Source of the DNA: Sandarakinorhabdus cyanobacteriorum | Lineage (GTDB): Bacteria > Pseudomonadota > Alphaproteobacteria > Sphingomonadales > Sphingomonadaceae | DNA: 57,278 bases | NCBI RefSeq assembly: GCF_002251755.1 | Contig: NZ_NOXT01000123.1 | Span: 1 to 57,278 of the forward strand | Direction: 5' to 3' | Shown: one piece after another, positions 29,470 to 51,778 of the stretch | Layout: the number at the start of each line of letters is the position of its first letter | How positions within the stretch are numbered: position 1 is the first letter of the stretch | Program-made: the position numbers and the translations under genes | Notes under the pieces: generated by a model | Seen by the model: only the letters and a program-made list of their open reading frames with translations | What the model was told of the DNA's origin: nothing | The model's database searches: none

Positions 29470-30229
29470 TTTCGCTCTCGTCCGCCCCGCCAGCCTGGCC
29501 GATGCCGCAGCCGCCTTCTCGGGTGGCGGTGAAGCCGCCTATCTCGCCGGCGGCCACACGCTGATTCCGGCGATGAAATCGCGCCTGCGCATGCCCGATG
29601 CCCTGGTTGACCTGTCGGGCCTTGGCCTGTCGGGCATCACCCGCGACGGCAACCGCCTGTGGATCGGCGCGATGACCCGCCATGCCGATGTCGCCACCGG
29701 CGCCACCGCCATTCCGGGCCTTGCCGCGCTGGCCAGTGGCATCGGCGATGCCCAGGTGCGCAACCGCGGCACCCTGGGCGGCAGCGTGGCCAACAATGAT
29801 CCGGCGGCCGATTATCCCGCCGCCTGCCTCGCGCTGGACGCCCTCATCGAAACCGATCGCGGCAGCCACACGGCCGATGATTTCTTCCAGGGCATGTTCA
29901 CCACGGCGCTGGCTGATGGTGAGATCATCACCCGCATCGGCTTTTCGATCCCGGCCAGATCGGCCTATGCCAAGTTCCGCCACCCGGCCTCGCGCTATGC
30001 GGTGGTGGGTGTCTATGTCGCCGATCATGGCGGCCAATGGCGGGTCGCCGTCACCGGTGCCGGCCCCGGCGTCTTCCGCTGGGCCGAGGCCGAAGCCGCC
30101 ATCGCTGCCGGTGGCGCCCTGCCGGCGATGCCGGCCGATGATCTCAACAGCGACATCCACGCCGGGCCCGATTATCGCGCCCATCTGTGCGGCGTGATGC
30201 TGAAACAGGCGCTGGCCTGTCTCGCCTGA
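29462..30229 (+). CDS. FAD-binding subunit of a molybdenum hydroxylase (CoxM-like)
   Basis: 255 residues. AYLAGGHTLIPAMKSRLRMPD is the first FAD pyrophosphate loop and IGDAQVRNRGTLGGSVANNDPAADYPAA the second, characteristic of CoxM. The C-terminal domain (HPASRYAVVGVYV) is present. It takes electrons from CoxS and passes them on to the respiratory chain or NAD. The next gene is yebC, so the large subunit must come from elsewhere or the enzyme is incomplete. Confidence 0.94.
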   Translation: MRDFALVRPASLADAAAAFSGGGEAAYLAGGHTLIPAMKSRLRMPDALVDLSGLGLSGITRDGNRLWIGAMTRHADVATGATAIPGLAALASGIGDAQVRNRGTLGGSVANNDPAADYPAACLALDALIETDRGSHTADDFFQGMFTTALADGEIITRIGFSIPARSAYAKFRHPASRYAVVGVYVADHGGQWRVAVTGAGPGVFRWAEAEAAIAAGGALPAMPADDLNSDIHAGPDYRAHLCGVMLKQALACLA

Positions 30230-30291
30230 TTGCCGTGCCGGCCGGCCGTTGCTAAGGCCGCTGCCATCAACCCTGCAGCGAACGAAGCACC

Positions 30292-31032
30292 ATGGCCGGC
30301 CACAGCAAATTCAAGAACATCATGCACAGGAAGGGCGCGCAGGACAAAAAGCGCAGCGCCCTCTTCTCCAAATTGTCCCGCGAAATCACCGTCGCGGCCA
30401 AGATGGGCATGCCCGATCCCGCCAACAATCCGCGCCTGCGCGCCGCCATCCTGGCCGCCCGCGCCGAAGGCATGCCGAAAGACAATATCCAGCGCGCCGT
30501 CGACAAATCGCAGGGCGGCGACACGGCAAACTATGAGGAGGTGCGCTACGAAGGCTTCGGCCCCGGCGGCGTCAGCCTCATCATCGAAACCCTCACCGAC
30601 AATCGCAACCGCACCGCCACCAACGTGCGCACCATCATGGCCAAGAACGGCGGCAACCTCGGCGCCTCCGGCAGCGTCTCCCACGCCTTCGAACGGCTGG
30701 GCCTGATCAGCTACAAGGCCGCGGCCGGCAGCGCCGATGCCGTGTTCGAAGCCGCGCTGGAGGCCGGCGCCGACGATGTGCAATCCAGCGACGACGGCCA
30801 CGAGATCTGGACCAGCATCGAAAATCTCCACGAAGTCGCCCGCGCGCTGGAACCGGTGCTGGGTGAGGCTGAAGGCACCAAGCTGGCCTGGAAGCCGGGC
30901 ACCATGGTCACCGTTGGCGCCGACGATGCCGCCCAGCTGATGCAGCTGATCGACAAGCTGGACGATGATGACGATGTGGCATCGGTGTGGGGCAATTATG
31001 ACGTGCCCGACGACGTGATGGCCAGTTTGTGA
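30292..31032 (+). CDS. yebC: YebC/PmpR family transcriptional/translational regulator
   Basis: 246 residues. [44 protein letters not shown] and [14 protein letters not shown] are the full family signature. Members bind DNA as regulators and more recently are linked to helping ribosomes through polyproline stretches (TACO1 relation). It stands at the head of a run leading to ruvCAB, a usual location. Confidence 0.97.
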
Positions 31033-31475
31033 AACCGGGCCTGGCAGCACTGCTGATGATCATGGCTACACCCGCCGCGGCCGATCCGGTGGCCGAGATC
31101 AAGGCGGCCCGCGCCGCCTACAATGCTGCCATTGCCGCCCGCGATGTGGCGGGCGTGCGCGCCGCCTTCGGCGATGGCTATGTCGGCATTGCCGGCACCA
31201 CCGGCGAAGCCATCATCGGTGCCGATGCCATGACCGATTATTTCGCCCGCGCCTTCAAGACGAGCGGCTTTCTCGGCTTTGTCCGCACGCCGGCAACCGT
31301 CACCGTCGCTGATCCGCCGGCCCGCGCGGTGGAATATGGCCACTGGTCGGGCGGCAGCACCAATGGCGTGCTCAGCGGCGACTATTTCGCCGTCTGGGTG
31401 CCCACGCCGCAGGGCTGGAAACTGCGCAGCGAAACCTTCGTCACCCTGGCCAACGGCGCGCGCCCCCGGCCATGA
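31029..31475 (+). CDS. Exported SnoaL-like/DUF4440 protein
   Basis: 148 residues from a GTG at 31029 that overlaps the yebC stop. A short signal peptide ([17 protein letters not shown]) precedes a cone-shaped SnoaL/NTF2-like domain ([64 protein letters not shown]). Such domains bind small ligands or act as isomerases; no role known. Its stop overlaps ruvC by four bases. Confidence 0.85.
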
Positions 31476-31966
31476 GCCGCACCATCATCGGCCTTGATCC
31501 CGGCCTGGCCGCCACCGGCTGGGGCGTGATCGTGGCCGACGGCAACCGCCTCAAGCATGTTGCCCATGGCACGATCAAGACGAAGGTCACCGATGCGATT
31601 ACCGATCGGCTCAAGGCCTTGCACGATGATCTGATGGCCGTGATTGCCGCCCACCAGCCCGGCGAGGCGGCGGTCGAGGAGGTGTTCGTCAACACCAACC
31701 CGCAAACCACCATCAAGCTGGTGCAGGCGCGCGGTGTCGCGCTGCTGTGCCTTGGCCGCGCCCGGCTGATGGTTGCCGAACACGCCACCCGTGCCGTCAA
31801 GAAAGCCCTCACCGGCACCGGCGCCGCCGAGAAGCCCCAGGTGCAGGCCATGGTGGAACGGCTGTTGCCCGGCGTGACAATCAATGGCAGCGATGCGGCA
31901 GACGCGCTGGCAGTGGCAATCGCCCACGCGCATCTGGTGCGGAGCATGCGTGAGGTGATGATATGA
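31472..31966 (+). CDS. ruvC: Holliday junction endonuclease RuvC
   Basis: 164 residues. [19 protein letters not shown] contains the first catalytic Asp; EEVFVNTNPQTTIKL supplies the next acidic residue and DAADALAVAIAHAH the last ones. It cuts Holliday junctions symmetrically. Overlaps of four bases (ATGA) link it to the genes on both sides. Confidence 0.97.
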   Translation: MSRTIIGLDPGLAATGWGVIVADGNRLKHVAHGTIKTKVTDAITDRLKALHDDLMAVIAAHQPGEAAVEEVFVNTNPQTTIKLVQARGVALLCLGRARLMVAEHATRAVKKALTGTGAAEKPQVQAMVERLLPGVTINGSDAADALAVAIAHAHLVRSMREVMI

Positions 31967-32562
31967 TCGCCCGCCTGAAGGGCCTGGTGGACAGCGTGTC
32001 GGCAGACAGCCTGGTGGTTGACGTCAATGGCGTCGGCTATCTGGTGCAGGCCTCCACCCGCACCCTCTCCAACCTGTCGGTGGGGCAGGGGCTGGCGCTC
32101 CACATCGAAACCCAGGTGCGCGAAGACGCCATCACCCTGTTCGGCTTTGCTGCCGAGGGCGAACTGGCCGCCTTTCGCGCGCTCACCACGGTGCAGGGCG
32201 TCGGCGGCCGGGTGGCCTTGAACATCCTGTCGGTCCTCACGCCGGATCAGATCGCCCATGCCGTCGCCGCCGGCGATGCCGCCAGCCTGGCCCGCGCCAA
32301 CGGCGTCGGCCCCAAGCTTGCCGCCCGCATCGCCAACGAACTGAAGGGCAAGTTGGGCGCCGTCGCGCTTTCGGCCGGGGCGCCGCTGCCGATCAAGGCC
32401 GGCGCCCGCGTGGCCGACGATGCCATCGCGGCCTTGGCCGCCCTGGGCTTCCGCCCGATGGACGCCAGCCGCGCCGTCTCCGAAGCGCTGGCCGATCTGG
32501 GTGAGGGCGCGGCGCTGAATGATGTGGTGCGGGTGGCTTTAAAAAGGAGTGCAAAGCAATGA
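31963..32562 (+). CDS. ruvA: Holliday junction helicase subunit RuvA
   Basis: 199 residues. OB-fold start MIARLKGLVDSV, the acidic pin region, two helix-hairpin-helix motifs (VQGVGGRVALNIL and ANGVGPKLAARIANELK) and the C-terminal RuvB-binding domain (DDAIAALAALGFRPMDASRAV). The last codons (32540-32562) are AT rich and carry AAAAAGGAG, the ribosome site for the inserted gene that follows. Confidence 0.97.
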   Translation: MIARLKGLVDSVSADSLVVDVNGVGYLVQASTRTLSNLSVGQGLALHIETQVREDAITLFGFAAEGELAAFRALTTVQGVGGRVALNILSVLTPDQIAHAVAAGDAASLARANGVGPKLAARIANELKGKLGAVALSAGAPLPIKAGARVADDAIAALAALGFRPMDASRAVSEALADLGEGAALNDVVRVALKRSAKQ

Positions 32563-33149
32563 CCACGGAAACTGATTGGATTTCTGTAGTTCTTTCTGGC
32601 TCCTCTCTGGCCGTCTCTATTTGGGCGGCTATCTATGCTTCGAAGTCAGACCAAAAATCAACAGCGCTCACTGAACGGCAGAATGAATTGTCAGAAATGC
32701 AAACCAAGCTCAGTAAGATATCTTGGTCTGATGAATATTTTTGCGAGTTAAATCAATGGGCGTCGCAAGTCGCGTTTCTTATTTCAGAGGCGATACATGC
32801 TGCGGAAGACCCTGGCGCACAAACCGAAAAGATAAGAGAAGTTCGATCTAAACTTAGTGCATCTATCGATACAGGTCGATTCTATTTTCCAAATAAATAT
32901 GAAGAAGAATATGGAAAGGAAAAACCGTTTGCGTACCGCGGGTTTCGTCAGGATGTAATTGACTACATAGTTTTTGCATACGATGAAATTAGTAAAAAAG
33001 ATGGGAAAATAGATCGAGATCAATTGGTTCAATATCAAAGGCTTTTTGTGAGCGAGGTTCAAAAACGTTTGGATCCGAAATCTAGAGAAGCAAAGATCCT
33101 TGAGGTGTTAAAGGAGTTTTCTAGCGTTGCCATTGGCAATAAGAAATGA
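32559..33149 (+). CDS. AT-rich membrane-anchored protein of unknown function inserted between ruvA and ruvB
   Basis: 196 residues. One N-terminal membrane helix ([21 protein letters not shown], about 7-27), a polar coiled-coil stretch (about 28-55), then a charged, Lys/Glu-rich cytoplasmic domain ([35 protein letters not shown]). Base composition is unlike its neighbours: bases 32881-32940 contain 21 G+C of 60, against clearly more than 60 percent nearby. The start overlaps the ruvA stop and the stop overlaps the ruvB start, both as ATGA, and the 7-base sequence AATGACC occurs at both edges (32558-32564 and 33145-33151). No family was recognised. The layout and codon use point to recent acquisition. 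Confidence 0.85.
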
Positions 33150-34159
33150 CCGCCGATCTCTCCCCCCAGCGCCGTCCGGACGATATTGACGCCGCCCTGC
33201 GCCCCAAGGGGCTGGATGAGTTCATCGGCCAGGCCGCCCTGCGCGACAATCTCGGCATCTTCATCGCCGCCGCGCGCAGCCGGGGCGAGGCGATGGACCA
33301 TGTGCTGCTGCACGGCCCGCCCGGCCTCGGCAAGACCACGCTGGCCCAGATCGTCGCCCGCGAACTGGGTGTCGGCTTTCGCGCCACCTCCGGCCCGGTG
33401 ATTGCCAAGGCCGGCGATCTCGCTGCCATCCTCACCAATCTCGAACCGCATGATGTGCTGTTCATCGACGAGATTCACCGCCTCGCGCCCGCCGTCGAGG
33501 AAATCCTCTATCCGGCGATGGAAGACCGGGTGCTCGACATCATGATCGGCGAAGGCCCGTCGGCGCGCAGCGTGCGCATCGATCTGCCGGCCTTCACACT
33601 CGTTGGTGCCACCACCCGCGCCGGCCTGCTCACCACCCCGCTGCGCGACCGCTTCGGTATCCCGCTCAGGCTCAATTTCTACACGGTGGACGAGCTGGAA
33701 CAGGTCGTCACCCGTGCCGCCCGGCTGCTCGACCTGCCGCTCACCCCCGATGGCGCCCGCGAGATTGCCGCCCGCGCCCGTGGCACCCCGCGCATTGCCG
33801 GCCGGCTGCTGAGGCGGGTGCGCGATTTTGCCGGCGGCAAGCCGGTGGACGCGAAACTCGCCGATGCCTCATTGAGCCGGCTGGAGGTGGACCGGCTCGG
33901 CCTTGACGCCATGGACCGCCGCTACCTGATGATGATCGCCGATATCTATCGCGGCGGCCCGGTCGGCATCGAAACGCTCGCCGCCGGCCTGTCCGAAGCG
34001 CGCGACACGCTGGAAGATGTGATCGAGCCCTTTCTGATCCAGCAGGGCCTCATTGCCCGCACCGCCCGCGGCCGCATGCTGAACGGCCCGGCCTGGAAGC
34101 ATCTGGGCCTGGTTGCGCCGGCCGAACAAACCATATTGCCGTTGCTTGACGAGGAATGA
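33146..34159 (+). CDS. ruvB: Holliday junction helicase motor RuvB
   Basis: 337 residues. Walker [14 protein letters not shown], Walker [10 protein letters not shown], sensor 1 [20 protein letters not shown] with the Arg finger, and the winged-helix C-terminus ([21 protein letters not shown]). It drives branch migration with RuvA. Its ribosome site is weak (AATAAGAA) because the upstream DNA is now the end of the inserted gene, so translation may depend on coupling. Confidence 0.97.
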
Positions 34160-34197
34160 CGCGTAACCTTTCCCGACCCTGATGCGGAGGACCCGAT

Positions 34198-34746
34198 ATG
34201 CGCACCTTCCTCACCCCGCTCGTCCTTCTCGTCGCCAGCCTGGCCGCCCCAGCCCTGGCCATTCCCGCTGTCGGCGAAAAGGCCCCGGCGGTTGCCGGCA
34301 AGGATATCAGCGGCAAGACCCGCACGCTGAAGCAGCTTGCCGGCCGCAAGGGCACGGTGCTGATGTTCTTTCGGTCGGCCTCCTGGTGCCCGTTCTGCAA
34401 GGCACAGTTGATCGCCATGAACGACAAGGCCGCAACTGCCCTCGCGTCCAGGGGCTATGCGCTGGTTGGTCTGTCCTATGACGCGCCCGATGTGCTCGCC
34501 AGGTTCGCGGCAGAGCGCAACGTGGCCTGGCCGCTGCTGTCTGACCCGCAATCACAGGTGATTGATGGTTGGCAGTTGCGCGATCCCGCCTATCCGGCCG
34601 GCAACCGCGCCTATGGTGTGCCCCGCCCCGCCGTTTATGTGATCGATCGGAAGGGCATCATCCGCGCCCGATTGATGGAAGAAAATTACCGCGTGCGCCC
34701 GCAACCCGAAGCGGTGCTTGCCGCCGTCGACGCGCTGGGCCAGTAA
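34198..34746 (+). CDS. Exported peroxiredoxin/thioredoxin-fold protein
   Basis: 182 residues with GGAGG upstream. Signal peptide MRTFLTPLVLLVASLAAPALA; AhpC/TSA-like domain with redox motif SASWCPFCKAQL (CPFC) and YGVPRPAVYVIDRKGIIRAR. Probably a periplasmic thiol reductase or peroxidase. Confidence 0.88.
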   Translation: MRTFLTPLVLLVASLAAPALAIPAVGEKAPAVAGKDISGKTRTLKQLAGRKGTVLMFFRSASWCPFCKAQLIAMNDKAATALASRGYALVGLSYDAPDVLARFAAERNVAWPLLSDPQSQVIDGWQLRDPAYPAGNRAYGVPRPAVYVIDRKGIIRARLMEENYRVRPQPEAVLAAVDALGQ

Positions 34747-50369: not shown

Positions 50370-50630
50370 ATGACGGGACGGCGAGTCGAGTATAGCCGGC
50401 AGGCGGCCAAAACTTTGATGCGGATCGACGCCGCAACCTCAGCGCGCATCCGGTTGAAGATCAGGCAGCTGGCGGGCGATCCCGCTGCCCAAGCCAACAA
50501 TATACTGCCCATGAAGGGCTGCGAGGGACTGTTTCGGCTTCGGGTGGGTGACTGGCGGGTGGTCTACACCGAAACGCTGGTGATCGTGTCGGTGATCCGG
50601 ATCGGCCCACGCGGAGACGTCTATGACTAG
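50370..50630 (+). CDS. RelE/ParE-family toxin
   Basis: 86 residues: VEYSRQAAKTLMRIDAATSARIRLKI, ILPMKGCEGLFRLRVGDWRVVY and IRIGPRGDVYD are the classic RelE-fold pattern, with basic and aromatic residues at the end for mRNA binding. It precedes its antitoxin by 9 bases. RelE-type toxins cut mRNA on the ribosome; ParE relatives poison gyrase. Confidence 0.9.
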   Translation: MTGRRVEYSRQAAKTLMRIDAATSARIRLKIRQLAGDPAAQANNILPMKGCEGLFRLRVGDWRVVYTETLVIVSVIRIGPRGDVYD

Positions 50631-50639
50631 GAGGCGGAC

Positions 50640-51026
50640 ATGAACATTGAGGTGCAGCGTTTCCGGACGCCGGAAGGCACTGAAATGGTGGTGCTGCCGG
50701 CAAAGGACTATGACCGGTTGGCCGCGCTGGCAGCGGACGGCGAAGACCTTGCGGACGCCCGCGCCACGCTGGCGCGGATTGATGCCGGCGAAGGCACGAT
50801 GCCGGGCGAAGTGCTCGGCGCCATCCTCGACGACGGCCTCCACCCCATCGCCGCCTGGCGTCGTTATCGTGGCCTGTCCCAGGCCGAACTCGCCCGCCGC
50901 ACCGGCCTCAGCCAGGTCTGGCTGAGCCGGATCGAAAATGGCGGCGGCACCGGTTCGGCGGCGACGCGGCGCAAGCTGGCAGAGGCGCTGGAGGCGCCGG
51001 TGTGGGCGTTGGATGGAGGGGAATGA
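50640..51026 (+). CDS. HTH-type antitoxin
   Basis: 128 residues. N-terminal half MNIEVQRFRTPEGTEMVVLPAKDYDRLAAL resembles toxin-binding arms, and the C-terminal XRE-type helix-turn-helix is RYRGLSQAELARRTGLSQVWLSRIENG. It should bind the RelE-like product and repress the operon. GGAGG-type ribosome site (GGAGGCGGAC) upstream. Confidence 0.9.
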   Translation: MNIEVQRFRTPEGTEMVVLPAKDYDRLAALAADGEDLADARATLARIDAGEGTMPGEVLGAILDDGLHPIAAWRRYRGLSQAELARRTGLSQVWLSRIENGGGTGSAATRRKLAEALEAPVWALDGGE

Positions 51027-51074
51027 GTATAATATTCCCGGAACTTGGAACAGGTGTCAGTTAAAGGCTCGCAC

Positions 51075-51632
51075 ATGAGTGACTCCTTCCTTCCAGGTTT
51101 CCCACCTATTATAGCCCTTAAGGGGGAGCCAATTATGGTTGCGCCAGAGTTTGGCTTAGCCTTGGCTGCCATTGTGATTGAATGGTCGCGAGTCGAAATC
51201 GGATTTGACATGGACTTGAACAGCCTGCGCCAGTTTCCAGGCATTGCCGAATTGTCCCCTGAAATGCCGAGAAGCTTCAATAAGAAGGTAAAGCTTTGGC
51301 GGCGCTCTGTAAAAACCATAGCACCCGCTATCGAGGCATATCAGGCCTATGCAGATCATATTCGGGATAGCGCCTTAAAGCTTGCGCTAATTCGCAATCT
51401 GCTCGTTCATGGGCTGTGGCGGATTGACGGCCCAGAGCCTGATGGTAAATGGCCCGTTCAAAGCCAAAAACAAACAGCAGATGGCTTTCAATTGATAAAG
51501 GCCGCCCCAAATGCGGCAGATCTTGAAGAAACCTTGGCAGATATCATGAAATTAGCCGGTGACATCAATGGCTTTCATCTTTCTCGCATGCTTCATCAAC
51601 AGCGTGGAATATTGACGGTAAATAGGGGATAG
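51075..51632 (+). CDS. Lower-GC protein with HEPN-like R-x4-H motif
   Basis: 185 residues from the ATG at 51075 (a TTG at 51045 is possible). Helical throughout. LKLALIRNLLVHGLWRID contains R107-N-x3-H112, the arrangement of the HEPN ribonuclease signature. Base composition is lower in GC than the surroundings (51061-51120: 28 G+C of 60). TATAAT occurs at 51028-51033 without a -35 at normal spacing. No family was recognised with certainty. Position after a toxin-antitoxin pair suggests a defence or toxin role (inference). Confidence 0.6.
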   Translation: MSDSFLPGFPPIIALKGEPIMVAPEFGLALAAIVIEWSRVEIGFDMDLNSLRQFPGIAELSPEMPRSFNKKVKLWRRSVKTIAPAIEAYQAYADHIRDSALKLALIRNLLVHGLWRIDGPEPDGKWPVQSQKQTADGFQLIKAAPNAADLEETLADIMKLAGDINGFHLSRMLHQQRGILTVNRG

Positions 51633-51778
51633 AAACTCGATGAGTTCGATAAGAATTTCAGGGGAATGCTGGAGATAGTTTACGCAAATTCCAGCACCTA
51701 CCACGCGGCGTGCGGCCCGATATGCCCAGCCCCGTGTCGAGCACTGGACGACGGTGGGCGCTGCAGGGCTGCCCCAAC

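Follow-up and report, generated by a model that had tools for sequence, protein, structure and literature searches.

The end of ruvA appears to be a docking site for accessory genes in the Sphingomonadaceae, the family of Sandarakinorhabdus cyanobacteriorum, and an AT-rich open reading frame that we call gene X is one of the cargo genes. We put the probability of this reading at about 70%. As read from the genomes, ruvA and ruvB lie next to each other in near relatives and in the genomes of other families that we examined, and they are split by various genes in most of the family's genomes that we examined.

We analyzed a stretch of 57,278 nucleotides (the window; all of positions 1 to 57,278 of contig NZ_NOXT01000123.1). 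The features that matter here are listed in Table 1.

Table 1. Features of the ruvC-ruvA-X-ruvB region, in window coordinates.
Feature	Position	Strand	Basis or remark
ruvC	31472..31966	+	open frame; named by similarity and position
ruvA	31963..32562	+	Pfam RuvA_N, HHH_5, RuvA_C
last eight ruvA codons	32536..32559	+	AT-rich, rare codons; GC3 0.25
AAAAAGGAG, probable ribosome-binding site of X inside ruvA	32541..32549	+	read directly
ATGA overlap, ruvA stop and X start	32559..32562	+	read directly
gene X	32559..33149	+	open frame, 196 aa, between ruvA and ruvB
predicted membrane helix, X residues 7-25	32577..32633	+	top 19-residue hydropathy, 1.73
ten-residue motif, X residues 103-112	32865..32894	+	six residues invariant in 32 sequences
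ATGA overlap, X stop and ruvB start	33146..33149	+	read directly
ruvB	33146..34159	+	Pfam RuvB_N, AAA_lid_4, RuvB_C

The initial annotation had described a 196-codon AT-rich frame with ATGA at both ends, a ribosome-binding site, and low G+C content, and we read all of these features in the same way. The G+C content of X is 40.6%, versus 65.6% for the whole window, and falls to 21/60 in 32881-32940. At third codon positions (GC3), X has 0.36, versus 0.80-0.89 in eight window genes. Judging from the sequence, X has both marks of translational coupling, namely a stop-start overlap and an upstream ribosome-binding site, which ends 9 nt before the ATG of X. No other frame accompanies X between ruvA and ruvB, which does not fit a toxin-antitoxin system with two small coupled partners. 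The insert contains no transposase gene and no non-coding DNA. There is no attC site after X, as X ends inside the ruvB start and leaves no non-coding room. The ruvC frame is 61% identical to the frames found beside ruvA in Sphingopyxis and in genome G891, which also bears X (see below).

Apart from X, G+C drops below 52% in just one stretch of the window, 51001-51700 (300-nt stretches in steps of 100). It holds a second AT-rich frame (51045-51632, 195 aa, 49% G+C), which comes after two frames that we named by eye as RelE-like and HTH (50370-51026). Because it adjoins this toxin-antitoxin pair, the second frame may be further cargo.

We also looked for regulatory signals. The exact sequence GTTCN7GTTC, which we take to be a box for damage-induced expression, is present somewhere in 31 of 282 loci and nowhere in the window, so damage-induced expression of the cargo is unsupported. 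A promoter and terminator scan of 30100-34300 gave nothing above chance. When we folded the RNA of three junction stretches, neither of the two from the window was outstanding (z of 0.33 and -0.64); the stretch from the relative at locus L003 had a z of -1.86.

A single-sequence search found X in its own genome only (n=98); it was absent from the 97 other relatives, of which 23 belong to the same genus. This sporadic presence agrees with the earlier description of an AT-rich cargo gene in an unbroken housekeeping operon. In the nearest relative by RuvB (G009, locus L003; 97% identity), ruvA and ruvB are joined directly by one ATGA, and they are coupled in G014 (locus L007; 94-95%) as well. Both junctions read CCATGACCGCCGATCTT, with ATGACC present once; in more context they are ...AAGCC-ATGACCGCC... 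or nearly so. The initial annotation had predicted that removing the insert would give an ordinary ATGA-coupled ruvA-ruvB, and this is the arrangement in these two relatives.

The check that it had proposed, an alignment of the ruvA-ruvB junctions of relatives, also revealed a gap that varies within the genus. For instance, the second-nearest relative by RuvB (L004, 96%) has a 145-nt spacer and no gene at the junction. Both genes are on the locus in 17 same-genus relatives. Their junctions are coupled or overlapping in 5 cases (L003, L007, L012, L016, and L018); 6 have 15-18 nt between the genes, one has 70, one has 145, and four have 1.2-1.4 kb. The empty coupled sites and this spread indicate that the insertion is real and that the junction is variable even inside the genus.

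The variability extends to other genera. Sphingopyxis genomes usually carry ruvC, ruvA, a GFA-like gene, and ruvB in this order. We searched 80 Sphingopyxis genomes, of which 77 had a RuvB match, and read 74 junctions (all but those of G798, G810, and G819). The GFA-like gene is adjacent to ruvA in 38 of the 74, at least 300 nt away in 23, and 30-300 nt away in 1. The other 12 junctions lack it; 5 of these are compact, and another 5 span 291-924 nt. Where the GFA-like gene adjoins ruvA, more than 150 extra nt lie between that gene and ruvB in 15 of 38 cases. Among the 23 junctions with at least 300 nt, the first called gene overlaps the ruvA stop in 16, and the extra DNA between ruvA and the GFA-like gene consists mostly of genes other than X. 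Among the cargo in Sphingopyxis are a ParA-like protein, seen in 5 genomes, and AT-rich proteins without a name for which a membrane segment is predicted. By eye, we also assigned a GIY-YIG-like protein and a HicBA-like pair; one protein of the pair has a match to a hypothetical protein whose structure is known. Gene calls at L121, L140, L151, L152, L158, L161, and L169 are unsure.

For the family's other genera, we took 29 of 35 genomes plus G891 (one locus, L258, has no ruvA in its stretch). The ruvA-ruvB gap exceeds 250 nt in 20 of 29, and a ParE-like toxin was confirmed in one of these gaps. There was no convincing forward gene in the gaps of L243, L249, and L272, nor in those of L189 and L192 from the window's genus. 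In G891's genus, the gap of genome G045 (L254) is filled not by X but by a ParDE-like pair together with an AT-rich frame of 153 aa; its ruvC and ruvA are also about 1.1 kb apart. Cargo families that were found at the ruvA site in more than one genus include X, the HicBA-like pair, the ParDE-like pair, two unnamed families, and others.

Outside the family, the gap is at most 14 nt in all nine genomes that we hand-picked from 39, and none of the nine exceeds 250 nt. As a control junction, we used the start of murG: in 30 of 30 Sphingopyxis genomes, the preceding gene (taken as ftsW) ends -4 to +10 nt from it. This is a single control junction, the genomes of one genus are not independent, and one genome per species was compared. 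Taken together, the Sphingopyxis, family, other-family, and murG counts indicate that ruvA-ruvB is a variable site in a repair operon, with cargo that is mostly stop-start coupled. The site has what one would look for in a hotspot: it is empty in close relatives (L003 and L007), it holds different cargo in different genomes, and it is more variable than comparable junctions, as judged against one control and nine other-family genomes.

How did X arrive? The initial annotation had noted a 7-bp direct repeat, AATGACC, which is indeed present at 32558-32564 and 33145-33151, and had taken it as a mark of insertion. Under this explanation, X would have been brought in by a transposon-like element, and the repeat would be the target-site duplication that it left behind, which would fit a repeat at both ends of X and a single ATGACC in the empty site (6 of the 7 bases stand there once, and the seventh, an A, is a C). 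However, the insert has neither a transposase nor non-coding DNA, and ATGA is functional as a coupling signal. Also, murG starts read ATGACC without any insertion in 22 of 30 Sphingopyxis (these are related genomes). Furthermore, 12 Sphingopyxis insertions are coupled at both ends. Counted from the second base of the start codon, nine of them share no more than TGA between their two ends, one shares five bases, and two share six; X shares five (TGACC). The repeat is therefore poor evidence for a duplicating insertion, and insertion of X by a transposon-like element seems most improbable to us. From the sequence, the repeat looks to be largely the coupled start codon and not a clear duplication scar.

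The insertion is not a singular event: the gap contains differing extra genes across the family, and members of the X subfamily come right after ruvA in two further genera. Sphingopyxis sp. L1A2A has an X of 43% identity whose start lies in the ruvA stop (ATGA overlap); the GFA-like gene and then ruvB come next. In G891, X lies directly 3' of ruvA (TGATG overlap), and about 70 nt separate it from ruvB. When we searched 397 family genomes with a profile, we obtained 8 matches in 7 genomes. The best three were those of the window, Sphingopyxis sp. L1A2A, and G891; for the other 5, ruvA and ruvB were absent within the stretches examined. The three ruvA-linked X proteins form a clade (support 97/95) in a tree from which the long-branch rows L066, L071, L073, and L077 and six extra rows of the first tree had been removed. 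X had been described as recently acquired. Its base composition would fit a recent acquisition, but the three copies share just 39-45% identity. More precisely, the identities are 43, 39, and 45%, versus 50, 51, and 62% for RuvA.

The X copies diverge roughly as RuvA does, and X might already have belonged to the ruv operon of the family's ancestor, with later loss almost everywhere. The clade and the similar ranking of the X and RuvA identities would fit. On the other hand, X would have had to be lost from all 23 relatives of the same genus, from this place in 79 of 80 Sphingopyxis genomes, and from 2 of 3 in the genus of G891, and the composition of X is still far from that of the host. We view such old vertical inheritance as improbable. 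The placement common to three genera, along with other X kin that follow mutS, could instead mean that X works together with RuvA or RuvB as a partner rather than being cargo. However, almost all genomes that have these ruv genes lack X, other, unrelated genes occupy its place, and X is predicted to be in the membrane; we consider this role very improbable.

A further alternative concerns the end of ruvA itself. The last eight ruvA codons in the window are GCT TTA AAA AGG AGT GCA AAG CAA, versus GCC TTG AAG AAG AGC GCA AAG CC- in G009. The codon score of this tail is below that of all 2845 eight-codon stretches from eight window genes, and just 5 of the 2845 have a GC3 as low. X might have arrived joined to the ruvA end of an AT-rich donor, by recombination at the ruv locus, so that the last 24 nt of ruvA are foreign. 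The AT-rich tail, with codons rarer than in any host eight-codon stretch, points this way, as do the sister X copies that likewise follow ruvA in two other genera. However, the tail's peptide fits the genus (ALKRSAKQ versus ALKKSAKP), and our searches of genomes of the order, phylum, and family turned up no ruvA-X in an AT-rich donor. Selection in place explains the tail equally well, because the differences between the window and G009 are mostly silent and strengthen the ribosome-binding site: they create AAAAAGGAG. The tail either was adapted to X or arrived with X, and we see the foreign tail as a serious minority possibility.

Whichever way X arrived, a docking site at the end of ruvA remains our preferred reading, and its mechanism might be simple. 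The lysine codons of the ruvA tail would carry a ribosome-binding stretch; in Sphingopyxis, the ruvA tails contain AAGG in 49 of 74 cases and AAAG in 22 of 74. The ruvA stop often already contains a start codon (in AAATGA or AAGTGA, the preceding A or G gives ATGA or GTGA). Given these two parts, a frame that begins in the ruvA stop would be translated from the ruv transcript. If the stop of the cargo overlaps the next start, then the downstream gene would still be translated, and such insertions would be the ones tolerated. Cargo may then spread among strains via recombination in the conserved flanks.

What kind of protein is X? A structure model (mean pLDDT 92.6, pTM 0.72) is all helical, with a helix at residues 3-83. 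X is predicted to have one membrane helix, a long helix, and a helical domain; this agrees with the shape proposed in the initial annotation (one membrane helix, a coiled coil, and a charged domain). The single membrane helix and the acidic N-terminus suggest that X is anchored in the inner membrane with its helical domain in the cytoplasm. In an alignment of 32 sequences, I103, D104, G106, R107, P111, and N112 (an ID-GR--PN pattern) are invariant, although this conservation is biased upward, as the kin were gathered with a peptide pattern over the same stretch.

The initial annotation recognized no family for X, and no library that we used names one. X itself has no match in Pfam, NCBIfam, or PADLOC, no match by sequence in the PDB, and one weak match in PHROGs (E = 0.11). 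Fold searches gave nothing at E ≤ 0.001 (best E values of 0.24 against the PDB and 0.062 against a viral library). When the 32 family members were compared to model libraries, no model was matched by more than one of them; single members matched retron Ec48 2TM (E = 0.016) and SLATT (E = 0.04). PADLOC found nothing in the X of the window, the X of G891, or nine other cargo proteins. Phages, plasmids, and viral contigs contained no relative of the queries that we used (the X of the window, plus L052 for phages and L049 for plasmids).

X does have kin, though. Whole-genome searches found kin of X in 4 of 346 genomes of the order and 8 of 398 genomes of the phylum (its own included in both). A peptide-pattern scan of species genomes found 31 loci in nine phyla, many of them in metagenome-assembled genomes; as a single pattern was used, this undercounts the family. 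The X family is seen in several phyla and is unnamed by Pfam, NCBIfam, and PADLOC. A profile search also placed a remote member at another locus of G009 (L198; E = 3.2e-7), the nearest relative. A distant member was seen elsewhere in G263 (L200), a Sphingopyxis genome bearing ruvA-X.

Most of the kin sit at places other than ruv. To examine their neighbors, we scanned 70 of 115 frames with Pfam and PADLOC, and the families given here are among the matches listed. The other 45 frames (verrucomicrobial, mutS-linked, and some others) were left out, and ten proteins, partly from these, were scanned separately. In six alphaproteobacterial metagenome-assembled genomes, the X kin lie between mutS and glnD (L062, L063, L064, L067, L070, and L072). 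These mutS-linked kin form a clade, and a similar GFA-like gene lies near five of the six (L062 and, by tblastn, four others; not L070). One X kin has csb2 of a type I-G CRISPR-Cas system a short way upstream and a YejK-like gene downstream. The X kin of Azospirillum sp. B506 (L075, 715-7190) is flanked by a BPTD_3080-type (type III-like) restriction gene and a large gene for a Mod-like methyltransferase. In a Hyphomonadaceae metagenome-assembled genome (L077, 4213-7498), ilvB, the X kin, an unnamed 182-aa frame, and a 117-aa frame follow in succession, and the last three are coupled by ATGA. So the contexts are mixed, and just 2 of the 31 loci suggest defence, among the matches listed. A role of X in stress or defence is a guess, and we think it rather unlikely.

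Accessory-gene hotspots are usually described between transcription units. In E. coli, the part of PMC10121019 that we drew on describes defence islands as hotspots of accessory and defence genes between conserved genes. The ruvA site resembles these in its conserved flanks and its variable, sporadic cargo, which includes toxin-antitoxin pairs. It differs in that one to a few genes lie inside a transcription unit and are mostly stop-start coupled, and in that no integrase was seen in the X insert. Foreign or orphan genes reportedly join native operons to give mosaic operons, as Omelchenko (2003) and Price (2006) are said to have described. Mosaic operons are also treated in the sections of PMC2259305 that we drew on. 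As in those operons, the acquired gene joins a native operon and, judging from sequence, would share its expression; unlike them, one ruvA junction takes different genes across the family, and one cargo subfamily recurs in three genera. Other repair genes also receive acquired DNA: according to excerpts of two papers, the element SpyCI is found at mutL in a repair operon (PMC4129442), and integron-like elements are found in rulB (PMC4542609). These share with the ruvA site a DNA-repair gene as a favored place for acquired DNA, but they integrate into the gene, whereas X is a single inserted frame that leaves ruvA and ruvB intact. In the portions of the open literature on insertions or hotspots at ruvA-ruvB or in operons that our search covered, we found no account of a ruvA-ruvB docking site.

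Small membrane-anchored helical effector proteins exist, and X is like them in being small, helical, and sporadic, with one membrane segment. Unlike them, X has no significant sequence or fold match. We can sketch a fuller picture: the 3' end of ruvA would act as a translation socket; a cargo pool of X, toxin-antitoxin pairs, and small membrane proteins would have circulated between genera; and X would represent a new membrane-anchored stress or anti-phage family. This combination is speculative, and we hold it only tentatively.

If it is true, then an upstream gene would lend its ribosome-binding site and start codon to newcomers, and new genes would gain expression without a promoter. The ruvA junction would then be a place to look for cargo families that are as yet unknown. 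X itself represents a protein family that occurs in several phyla, is unnamed in the libraries that we used, and has a strongly predicted fold.
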